Source: Pseudactinotalea sp. HY158 (GTDB taxonomy: Bacteria; Actinomycetota; Actinomycetes; Actinomycetales; Beutenbergiaceae). Taken from it: DNA of 64,000 nt. The notes under the pieces are model-generated. The model was not told where the DNA came from. It did no database searches and worked only from the letters and a program-made list of their open reading frames with translations. Position 1 is the first letter of the stretch. Each line of letters opens with the position of its first letter. The stretch lies in the NCBI RefSeq assembly GCF_009660225.1, contig NZ_CP045920.1, positions 3,174,079-3,238,078 of the forward strand, given 5' to 3'. The translations under genes and the position numbers were made by a program. Shown here piece by piece: positions 2,731 to 44,971 of this stretch.

Positions 2731-4110
2731 ATGACCGAAGTCCAGGACCTGGCCGCGTTCGTCCACCGCGTCACGCTGGCGGATGCCGGCGCGGAGGCGA
2801 TCGATCGTTTGAAGATCCACGTCCTCGACACCCTCGGGGTCGCGATCGGCGCCCTCGACGCCGAGCCGATGGTCGCCGTCCGCGGCCTGCTCGAGGACCT
2901 CGGCGGCACCGAGGTCGCGACCCTCATCGGCGGCGGCCGGACCTCCCCGGACCGGGCCGCCTTCTACAACAGCGGCCTGAGCCGCTACCTCGACTTCATG
3001 GACGCCTACCTCGCCCCGGGGGAGACGAATCACCCGTCGGACAACCTCGGCGCGGTCCTCGCCGCCGCCGAGAGCGTCGGCGCCTCCGGAGCCGAGTTCC
3101 TCGCGGCCCTGGCGGTGGCGTACCAGGTGCACACCCGCCTCGCGGACGAGGCGCCCGTGCGGGCACGCGGCTTCGACCACACGACCCAGGGTGCCTATGC
3201 CGCGGCCGCCGGAGCGGCCAAGGCGATGCGGCTGACGACCGGCCAGATCGCGAACGCGATCGCGATCTGCGGCACCGCCAACAACGCCCTGCGCGTGACC
3301 CGCACGGGCTCGTTGAGCCACTGGAAGGGCCTCGCCTATCCGCAGGTGTCGAAGGAGGGGACGTTCGCGGCGCTGCTCGCGGCACGCGGGATCACGGGCC
3401 CGGCGGAGGTGTTCGAGGGGAACAAGGGCTTCAAGGAGACCGTCTCCGGCCCGTTCACGCTCGACTGGGCCGGGGAGGACCTGGAACGGGTCCGCCGGGT
3501 GATCATCAAGAAGCACAACGCCGAGATCCACTCGCAGTCGGCGCTCGAGGCGGTCATCGCCGTCCGGGCCCGCTTTCGGGCCGGCGTCCGGGCCGAGGAC
3601 GTCGCCTCGATCGAGCTGACGACCTTCGACGTGGCGTACTCGATCATCGGCGGCGGCGAGGAGGGCGACAAGCGGACGGTCGCCACGAAGGAGGAGGCCG
3701 ATCACTCCCTGCCGTGGATGCTCGCCGTGACCCTCCTCGACGGCGAGCTCACGCCCGCCCAGTACGAGCCCGCCCGGATCGTCGCCGACGACGTCCAACA
3801 GCTCATGACACGCGTGCGCATCCGGCCGGACGACGACCTGTCGGCGCGCTTCCCCGAGGAGATGCCGGCGCGCCTGGTCCTCACCCTGACCGACGGCACG
3901 TCCTTCGAGGCCGAGGAGTCCGCCTACGAGGGGTTCCACACCCGTCCGCAGAGCTGGGCGGGCGCCGAGCGGAAGTTCCACGCGCTCACGACCCCGTTCG
4001 CACCCGCCGAATTGCGCGAGGAGATCGTCGCGCTCGTGCGCGGGCTCGAGCACGAGCCCGTCACCGCCCTCACCTCCGCACTCGCCCGGGTGCGCCGGGA
4101 GCGGGCCTGA
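2731..4110 (+). CDS. MmgE/PrpD family protein
   Basis: The protein belongs to the family of 2-methylcitrate dehydratase (PrpD), cis-aconitate decarboxylase and iminodisuccinate epimerase. These enzymes act on small di- or tricarboxylic acids through proton abstraction. It has 459 residues. The N-terminal all-helical domain begins LAAFVHRVT and continues through IDRLKIHVLDTLGVAIGA, and the central NHPSDNLGAVLAAAESVGASG segment is typical. The ATG at 2731 has GGAGG 5 nt upstream; in-frame starts further upstream lack it. It is followed 40 nt later by a comA-like gene, not by prpB or prpC, so a methylcitrate-cycle role is unlikely and the substrate is unknown. Confidence 0.85.
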   Translation: MTEVQDLAAFVHRVTLADAGAEAIDRLKIHVLDTLGVAIGALDAEPMVAVRGLLEDLGGTEVATLIGGGRTSPDRAAFYNSGLSRYLDFMDAYLAPGETNHPSDNLGAVLAAAESVGASGAEFLAALAVAYQVHTRLADEAPVRARGFDHTTQGAYAAAAGAAKAMRLTTGQIANAIAICGTANNALRVTRTGSLSHWKGLAYPQVSKEGTFAALLAARGITGPAEVFEGNKGFKETVSGPFTLDWAGEDLERVRRVIIKKHNAEIHSQSALEAVIAVRARFRAGVRAEDVASIELTTFDVAYSIIGGGEEGDKRTVATKEEADHSLPWMLAVTLLDGELTPAQYEPARIVADDVQQLMTRVRIRPDDDLSARFPEEMPARLVLTLTDGTSFEAEESAYEGFHTRPQSWAGAERKFHALTTPFAPAELREEIVALVRGLEHEPVTALTSALARVRRERA

Positions 4111-4150
4111 ACCGAGCCCCGTCCGGGGCATTCACACAAGGAGACCGACC

Positions 4151-4987
4151 ATGTCCAACGCCACCGGATTCGATGTGAGCTTCGACTTCGTGCCGCGCGC
4201 CTACCGCCCGGCCAAGCCCCGAGCCACCGGGATGACCGAGATCCGCGCCCCGTACTATGCGACGTTCGGCACCCGGCACCTGCAGGACGTCTTCGAGGTC
4301 GCCGGCCAGTGGGTCGACGGCATCAAGTGGGCGGGCGGCTCGTTCGCGCTCGTGCCGCCCGAGCAGGTCCGAGCGTTCAGCGACCTCGCGCACGAGAACG
4401 ACTCCTACGTCTCCTCGGGCGGCTGGATCGAGACCGTGCTGCGCTACGGCCCGGACGCGGTCGACCACTACCTCCGTGAGGCCAAGGAGGTGGGCTTCGA
4501 CGTGATCGAGATCTCGACCGGCTTCATCATGCTGCCCACCTCCGGGCTCGAACGACTCGTCGAGAAGGTGGTGGCGGCAGGCCTGCGGCCCAAGCCCGAG
4601 CTCGGCATCCAGATCGGCTCCGGCGGGGACTCCGGGGAGGCGGAGCTGGCGGCGGAGACGACGAAGGACATCGGCGACCTCGTCGACCGCGGCCGGCGCG
4701 CGCTCGCGGCCGGCGCATCGATCATCATGATCGAGTCCGAGGGGATCACCGAGAACGTCGCCGAGTGGAACACCTCCGCCGCGGCGTCGATCATCAACGG
4801 CCTCGGCCTCGAGAACGTCATGTTCGAGGCCGCGGACGGGCCGGTCTTCGAGTGGTACGTCAAGAACTACGGCAACGAGGTCAACCTGTTCGTCGACCAC
4901 AGCCAGATCCTCCAGCTCGAGGGGCTGCGTCAGAACATCTGGGGCAACGTGTCCACCTGGGGGCGCGTGATCAACCCCGCTCCGTGA
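4151..4987 (+). CDS. phosphosulfolactate synthase (ComA) family protein
   Basis: ComA enzymes add sulfite to phosphoenolpyruvate to give (2R)-phospho-3-sulfolactate, the first step of coenzyme M synthesis in methanogens and of sulfolactate synthesis in some bacilli. The 278-residue protein is the usual length for a TIM-barrel ComA. Recognisable stretches are VDGIKWAGGSFAL, FDVIEISTGFIMLP and IIMIESEGITENV, which carry the Lys and Glu residues expected near the metal and substrate site. AAGGAG lies 7 nt before the ATG. The gene forms an apparent operon with the PrpD-family gene. No comB, comC or comDE homologue is in the window, so the product may differ from sulfolactate. Confidence 0.85.
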   Translation: MSNATGFDVSFDFVPRAYRPAKPRATGMTEIRAPYYATFGTRHLQDVFEVAGQWVDGIKWAGGSFALVPPEQVRAFSDLAHENDSYVSSGGWIETVLRYGPDAVDHYLREAKEVGFDVIEISTGFIMLPTSGLERLVEKVVAAGLRPKPELGIQIGSGGDSGEAELAAETTKDIGDLVDRGRRALAAGASIIMIESEGITENVAEWNTSAAASIINGLGLENVMFEAADGPVFEWYVKNYGNEVNLFVDHSQILQLEGLRQNIWGNVSTWGRVINPAP

Positions 4988-44875: not shown

Positions 44876-44971
44876 TGGCGGAGGCGGACGGGAATCGAAC
44901 CCGCCAGGCCGAGGTTCTCGGCCTCGTCGGTTTTGAAGACCGCGGGGACCACCAGGTGCCCGGACGCCTCC
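44876..44971 (-). tRNA. selC: tRNA-Sec (anticodon TCA)
   Basis: This is a 96-nt tRNA with an encoded CCA end. The acceptor strands GGAGGCG and CGCCTCC pair, and the discriminator is G. The anticodon UCA (44934-44936) lies in the loop CTTCAAA. The long variable arm AGGCCGAG-AAC-CTCGGCCT is an 8-bp hairpin, as in tRNA-Sec. The T loop is TTCGATT. It is located 35 bp upstream of selA. Confidence 0.97.

Follow-up and report, generated by a model that had tools for sequence, protein, structure and literature searches.

The closest described counterpart of the gene pair analysed here is cg2796–cg2797 of Corynebacterium glutamicum, described as a DtxR-repressed operon whose second gene, cg2797, is annotated as comA (PMC2627906; this and the other papers below are cited from excerpts of their text). 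The excerpts of the publications found give no function for either gene. We analysed a 64,000-nucleotide stretch of Pseudactinotalea sp. HY158 (NZ_CP045920.1, positions 3,174,079 to 3,238,078; the window, hereafter), in which two forward-strand genes form a two-gene operon, the first encoding a 459-residue MmgE/PrpD-family enzyme (window positions 2,731–4,110) and the second a 278-residue, divergent triosephosphate isomerase (TIM)-barrel enzyme of the ComA family (4,151–4,987). This pair is likely to be a module of citrate and aconitate metabolism under aconitase stress, a role suggested by a promoter element that in several lineages is common to aconitase, icd/mdh and tam genes and by membership, in many actinobacteria, of an iron-starvation regulon, and it probably stands in for aconitase, or cleans up after it, when iron is short.

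In C. glutamicum, a DtxR motif is predicted 18 nt before the start of cg2796, which in a dtxR mutant scores +5.3 by array and +1610 by reverse-transcription PCR, in a table that reaches 2000-fold (PMC1382209). At pH 6 compared with pH 7.5, cg2796 and cg2797 mRNAs are up by 2.79 and 2.92 log2 units, respectively, under conditions that also bring an active iron-starvation response, slightly lowered aconitase and an accumulation of citrate (PMC2807442). The first gene is also listed with a value of 11.01 in a heme-tolerance study (PMC9491836), and both are among the largest changes seen with indole (PMC7764795). We equate cg2796–cg2797 with the pair by annotation, together with gene order, the Corynebacterium loci described below and calculated protein properties, rather than by direct alignment: cg2797 has a calculated mass of 30.3 kDa and an isoelectric point of 4.77 (PMC2627906), and three Corynebacterium members of the ComA-like clade have values of 30.3–30.5 kDa and 4.8.

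A first-pass annotation of the window had described an unexplained PrpD–ComA operon, and Pfam bears this out for both genes (MmgE_PrpD_N, 235 bits, and MmgE_PrpD_C, 142 bits, in the first; PF02679, 236 bits against a cut-off of 25.2, in the second). The genes run in the same direction with a 40-nt gap, and a ribosome-binding site read off the sequence (AAGGAG, 4,138–4,143, forward strand) ends 7 nt ahead of the second start. The second gene is the sole PF02679 match in the genome; another PrpD lies elsewhere and is 33% identical to that of the operon. The same annotation had remarked that no known pathway pairs the two families, and we agree: among the literature matches listed, none links the families biochemically or connects the pair to aconitase.

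The pair is widely conserved, well beyond what chance would give. Taking as relatives the best 80 of 330 matches in named genomes to a profile of the ComA clade, we found the same PrpD (at least 55% identity) directly upstream of the ComA gene in 70 of the 80, in Actinomycetota and Pseudomonadota, with gaps of −4 to 130 nt (median 38; zero or less in four, starts being set by a simple rule). The possibility, raised in the first-pass annotation, that the arrangement is unique to this strain is therefore ruled out. Among the ten exceptions, nine have no such PrpD and one has a broken copy: in Gulosibacter chungangensis (L086, 9,097–9,974) the pair is present with the PrpD gene split into two frames. 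Within the phylum (396 genomes), a PrpD of at least 55% identity occurs in seven genomes besides that of the window, all seven of which also carry the ComA clade, and a ComA-clade match without that PrpD occurs in two more, G455 (at a contig end) and G499. The gene in G499 (L065, G499:C2:36335–36733) is in two separate pieces and is apparently a remnant. Of 59 near-relative genomes, a set that includes the window's, 4 have the ComA gene.

Upstream of the operon, the window carries the palindrome CCTCTTGACGTCAAGATA (2,610–2,627), which differs from TATCTTGANNTCAAGATA at two positions and contains a possible −35 element, TTGACG (2,614–2,619). We collected 84 pair promoters, each up to 350 nt upstream of a PrpD match, with the window included and haloarchaeal promoters left out (82 distinct, several of them near-copies). 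The palindrome TATCTTGANNTCAAGATA occurs with at most two mismatches in 36 of these 84, against 0.00 per 84 in dinucleotide shuffles. Among thinned actinobacterial loci it occurs at the same threshold, counting C/T and A/G variants, in 14 of 30 pair promoters and in none of 487 control promoters from other genes of the same loci (Fisher P ≈ 2 × 10^−19, relatedness ignored).

The same element marks aconitase genes. In a set of ten genomes, the exact core TCTTGANNTCAAGA is found at 15 places: seven pair promoters, five sites before acnA, one before a TamR-type MarR gene, one before tam and one unrelated site (L214); two of the ten lack the exact core, and their pair promoters are one base off. 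A scan at up to two mismatches covered 14 genomes, of which 12 carry the pair. The window's genome (G000) has three copies, before acnA, in a divergent icd/mdh promoter and at the pair, and G020 and G022 have two each, at the pair and at acnA. Of five copies in Nocardiopsis, two precede acnA, one is at tamR, one has the sequence found at the pair of that genome and one is a further copy; Leucobacter G813 has a single copy, at its pair. In the 9-Mb genomes G075 and G112, where nothing reaches 45% identity to the pair's ComA, there are two copies each, one in the tamR–tam interval and one upstream of acnA; one Bradyrhizobium has two matches, at no recognised gene. One example each of AcnA, monomeric isocitrate dehydrogenase, malate dehydrogenase, trans-aconitate 2-methyltransferase and MarR was checked by family search, the methyltransferase scoring 353 bits against a cut-off of 320 and the AcnA and isocitrate dehydrogenase pieces, cut by the locus end, hence falling below full-length cut-offs; the remaining acnA, tam and tamR places were assigned by tblastn with the checked examples (46–93% identical).

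Streptomyces TamR represses aconitase and other tricarboxylic acid (TCA)-cycle genes and is released by citrate or trans-aconitate (PMC5487221). Because the palindrome also stands at acnA and at tamR/tam, and TamR controls aconitase in Streptomyces, it is very probably a TamR box, and TamR is predicted to bind the copy in the window. A TamR-like gene (52–68% identical) is present in 12 of 15 pair-bearing genomes, with best matches of 37–44% in the other three; in the window's genome it lies at G000:789710–790180, belongs to MarR in Pfam and shares 62% identity with the MarR gene adjacent to tam. In a Brevibacterium aurantiacum co-culture whose data hint at no iron limitation, aconitase is the one TCA-cycle gene reported to be more than twofold down (PMC13198182), a change of the kind that TamR control would predict.

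The same regulatory data bear on the main alternative, in which the pair disposes of trans-aconitate, a toxic by-product when aconitase loses its cluster: one enzyme would hydrate, isomerise or decarboxylate it and the other process the product, replacing or backing up the methyltransferase Tam. The palindrome at the pair is that of tamR–tam, and TamR responds to trans-aconitate as well as citrate (PMC5487221). Tam was found in only 3 of the 15 pair-bearing actinobacterial genomes, most of which have a clear TamR-like gene, and the existence of ComA-only loci, above all that of Brevibacterium daeguense, where a perfect palindrome precedes a ComA-like gene without PrpD, fits a clean-up enzyme; this is not so at nine other ComA-only loci checked. 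Conversely, Tam and the pair do occur together in three genomes, the acids on which PrpD-family enzymes are known to act are cis-configured or saturated, and the iron boxes described next suit a supply route at least equally. On balance we regard trans-aconitate disposal as less likely than a stand-in for aconitase, though it is the competitor to be taken most seriously.

The second type of regulatory site points to iron. The motif TWAGGTWAGSCTWACCTWA, which we take to be the DtxR/IdeR consensus, occurs with at most three mismatches in 24 of the 84 pair promoters (0.00 in shuffles) and with at most five in 43 (0.40 in shuffles). In the thinned actinobacterial loci it is present at up to three mismatches in 13 of 30 pair promoters and in 0 of 487 controls (Fisher P ≈ 5 × 10^−18, relatedness ignored). 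Of seven Corynebacterium pair promoters, four have the box at three or four mismatches (L073, L078, L082 and L085), two only at five (L068 and L081) and one not at all (L126), and none holds the TamR palindrome within five mismatches. In Pseudomonadota, a Fur-like box, matched to what we presume to be the consensus, was found at up to five mismatches in 3 of 14 pair promoters and 0 of 207 controls (P = 2 × 10^−4, uncorrected, for one of three consensuses tried), and a shorter Fur core at up to three mismatches in 3 of 14 and 1 of 207. An Irr-type motif showed a loose excess (1 of 14 against 6 of 207 at up to four mismatches; 5 of 14 against 31 of 207 at up to five) and was not used.

Genes next to the pair add no further partner. 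The clustered loci share no recurrent third gene within 10 kb, and in a survey of 50 loci none appears among the 25 most frequent Pfam families of the immediate neighbours on each flank (flanking genes called, 85 of 96 and 92 of 99; 129 and 157 families); prpB and prpC are missing from those 25 as well. Several candidates for pathway genes were rejected: the widest neighbour clusters were antisense reading frames or apparent generic families such as short-chain dehydrogenases and ATP-binding cassette ATPases, a link to succinate dehydrogenase reduced to five loci, and one to menaquinone genes reduced to the window and L056. The operon of the window is flanked by opposite-strand geranylgeranyl-reductase-like and UbiE-like genes, named from their translations with no family search. 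At L056 (G076:C4, 9,415–10,245, reverse strand), a ComA-clade gene without PrpD, 57% identical, stands among ubiE/menF-like and geranylgeranyl-reductase/nuo-like genes as in the window, whose translations supplied the gene names. Despite this shared neighbourhood, the two ComA genes are not closely related. Elsewhere in the window, the only tRNA reported by ARAGORN is a tRNA-Sec gene at 44,876–44,971 (reverse strand).

Iron control combined with an isolated pair also bears on the idea that in iron-starved cells the two enzymes build a small iron chelator resembling citrate. The iron boxes and DtxR control in C. glutamicum (PMC1382209) would suit such a product, and the TIM-barrel citrate synthase SbnG is among the general barrel matches of the ComA-like structure model (Z 14.4). 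SbnG serves staphyloferrin B synthesis. Its score, however, is no higher than those of dozens of unrelated barrels, the 25 commonest Pfam families on each flank hold no recurrent third gene, and a chelator would leave the palindrome shared with acnA, icd/mdh and tam unexplained; we consider this reading quite improbable.

The pair also appears to be mobile. Plasmid records with ComA-clade matches add Methylosinus, Methylocystis, Salinibacter and haloarchaea to its range; among 16 examined of 22 matching records, the two genes are adjacent in nine, in six the PrpD gene is on the same strand up to about 8 kb upstream and separated from ComA by other genes, and no PrpD is seen near the ComA-like gene in one, from Natrinema halophilum. 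On three Halorussus plasmids (L149, L153 and L155), a gene for a CGCGG-type, radical S-adenosylmethionine-modified ribosomally synthesized and post-translationally modified peptide separates the PrpD and ComA genes, and a metallo-β-lactamase-fold hydrolase gene follows ComA. Actinobacterial and proteobacterial rows are intermixed in the trees, and transfer of the pair between lineages is therefore likely.

The ComA-family partner belongs to a group of its own. It falls short of the equivalog for archaeal ComA (TIGR03849, 66.6 against 280 bits). In a tree of 67 rows, 41 paired-type sequences lie on one side of a branch with 100% support, and about 5 changes per site separate them from the other 26, Methanocaldococcus jannaschii ComA and Bacillus subtilis 1u83 among them, a depth that is uncertain given the quick method and long branches. 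We aligned 15 paired-type rows with 14 others, and 1u83 separately. The non-paired ComAs, which comprise the M. jannaschii and B. subtilis proteins and distant actinobacterial members, have the motifs KxGWGT (RxGWGS in one), E[VIT]GxK, E[GA]R, FEAPxK (with Asp in one and FETP in another) and GLRxDT, before which the alignment with 1u83 stops; all 15 paired-type rows carry instead KxxGGSF (mostly), K[PA]E[LVI][GN][IV]Q, E[SA]EG and [IL]WG, and the counterpart of FEAPxK is FEA, FES or FEG, with the lysine gone. Lys59, Gly90–Gly91, Glu94, Glu120, Glu150, Glu195, Phe225–Glu226 and Arg260 are retained. Single-residue roles of these motifs in metal, phosphoenolpyruvate and sulfite binding are presumed here in outline. 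The structure model (mean predicted local distance difference test score, pLDDT, 74) matches M. jannaschii phosphosulfolactate synthase 1qwg best (Z 25.6, root-mean-square deviation 3.4, 236 residues aligned), followed by 1u83 (Z 22.3); further matches are general barrels (Z below 16) and were not taken as evidence, and since the model is only fair the pocket was left out of the argument. Another ComA relative is the plant heat-stress protein HSA32.

As judged from the alignment and tree, the paired ComA-like proteins are a clade separate from the known phosphosulfolactate synthases and without their motifs, which makes sulfite and phosphoenolpyruvate chemistry unlikely. The first-pass annotation had suggested a short route to or from a sulfonate, in which a ComA-type addition of sulfite to phosphoenolpyruvate would be coupled to a PrpD-type step. 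The Pfam family, the fold with its best match to an authentic synthase, and the retention of part of the conserved barrel residues, from Lys59 to Phe225–Glu226, speak for such a route. Yet the motifs of the known enzymes are replaced in 15 of 15 paired-type rows, a loss that the same annotation had named as telling against its proposal; the branch is very long, the equivalog cut-off is missed, and the regulatory sites indicate citrate, aconitate and iron and not sulfur. We now consider a sulfonate route very improbable. The annotation's second suggestion, that the ComA-like enzyme may use another nucleophile, is compatible with these observations.

The PrpD-family partner looks catalytic in its structure model (pLDDT 93), which matches cis-aconitate decarboxylase, PrpD/MmgE and iminodisuccinate (IDS) epimerase over the whole length (Z 40.6–44.8). 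His101 of its HPSDN motif aligns with a catalytic histidine of cis-aconitate decarboxylase that has been called the most critical (PMC7347537). The AExHSQ motif is as in E. coli PrpD, a 2-methylcitrate dehydratase, and Glu265 occupies the position of a second decarboxylase histidine, presumably His277. His101, AExHSQ and Glu265 together would thus favour dehydration or a related proton abstraction over itaconate formation. A GGG.EGD loop is absent from solved PrpDs and partly present in unpaired sister PrpDs, whose gene context yields no clear substrate. One such sister, without ComA, on a plasmid of Bradyrhizobium sp. Ash2021 (L180, 8,001–9,419) adjoins transporter, cytochrome bd oxidase, malic enzyme and fumarase genes, a context that may hint at its substrate.

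Two motifs of 2-methylcitrate dehydratase, AExHSQ and HPSDN, are retained, which also raises the possibility that the pair acts on an aconitase-blocking substituted tricarboxylate, 2-methylcitrate or another. Against this, the protein lies far below the 2-methylcitrate dehydratase equivalog cut-offs (130.9 against 950, 114.4 against 575 and 98 against 458 bits), and in C. glutamicum prpB2 and prpC2 fall at pH 6 while cg2796–cg2797 rise (PMC2807442), so that we find this substrate improbable. For a role on citrate itself, we count the title of one PrpD NCBIfam model, 'bifunctional 2-methylcitrate dehydratase/aconitate hydratase'. We also count AcnC of E. coli, which is PrpD and uses citrate and isocitrate.

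Aconitase is a step of the TCA cycle that is highly vulnerable to oxidants and to loss of iron, and we know of no iron-free replacement for it, unlike fumarase. Under the citrate/aconitate reading, the pair would be a mobile two-enzyme module that is on when aconitase fails, whether iron is short or the iron–sulfur cluster is damaged. The PrpD-like enzyme would convert citrate to cis-aconitate with no metal cluster, and the ComA-like TIM barrel would add water to the cis-aconitate double bond to give isocitrate, by analogy with its relatives, which add sulfite across that of phosphoenolpyruvate. A TamR-type MarR repressor that leaves the DNA as citrate or aconitate accumulates would, in the window's lineage, govern the operon along with acnA and icd/mdh; in many other actinobacteria, DtxR/IdeR would add iron-dependent repression. 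We propose this iron–sulfur-free substitute-aconitase chemistry of PrpD plus a ComA-like protein tentatively. More speculative is its extension, that bacteria and haloarchaea own an iron-free two-enzyme aconitase whose hydratase evolved from the phosphosulfolactate synthase barrel, with water in place of sulfite and aconitate in place of phosphoenolpyruvate, switched on by TamR and, in many lineages, by an iron regulator.

Several observations weigh against a role of the pair in place of aconitase. Neither protein has a known enzyme activity, and the window's genome has an ordinary acnA. The regulatory sites are unevenly distributed: the window promoter has the palindrome and no iron box within five mismatches, neither site is present at the pair in the family f69 and G493 (L058–L063 and L066) or in the Salinibacter, rhizobial and methanotroph promoters, and 6 of the 12 pair-bearing genomes scanned have no palindrome anywhere at up to two mismatches. 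The ComA gene stands without such a PrpD nearby in 9 of the 80 relatives and in L056 and L057, and 11 ComA-only genomes searched contain no PrpD above 30% identity except for a 67-residue, 40% identical stretch at the contig end of G455; the ComA-like enzyme can therefore exist without PrpD. An aconitase deletion strain of C. glutamicum requires glutamate although cg2796–cg2797 are present, which argues against a substitute except where those media keep the operon repressed. Deleting or overexpressing cg2796–cg2797 had no effect on growth with indole (PMC7764795).

If the citrate/aconitate role is correct, the annotation 'phosphosulfolactate synthase' would be corrected for a large clade, and the pair would hint at how many soil, marine and halophilic microbes sustain citrate flow under iron starvation. 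Set beside known systems, the ComA-like partner shares Pfam family and TIM-barrel fold with the (2R)-phospho-3-sulfolactate synthases 1qwg and 1u83 and differs in being 18–20% identical to them in our alignments, with the known motifs replaced and a clade of its own. The PrpD partner has the fold and catalytic histidine of 2-methylcitrate dehydratase PrpD, cis-aconitate decarboxylase and IDS epimerase; it is 20–27% identical to these and differs in the GGG.EGD loop and Glu265. The TamR regulon of Streptomyces is not described as including the pair in the excerpted text (PMC5487221), and the same palindrome stands at acnA and between tamR and tam in G075 and G112. Like the pair, cg2796–cg2797 of C. 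glutamicum encode an MmgE/PrpD and a ComA-family protein in one operon, whose first gene is among the most strongly derepressed of a dtxR mutant (PMC1382209); in the window's lineage and several others, the shared palindrome links such an operon to aconitase.

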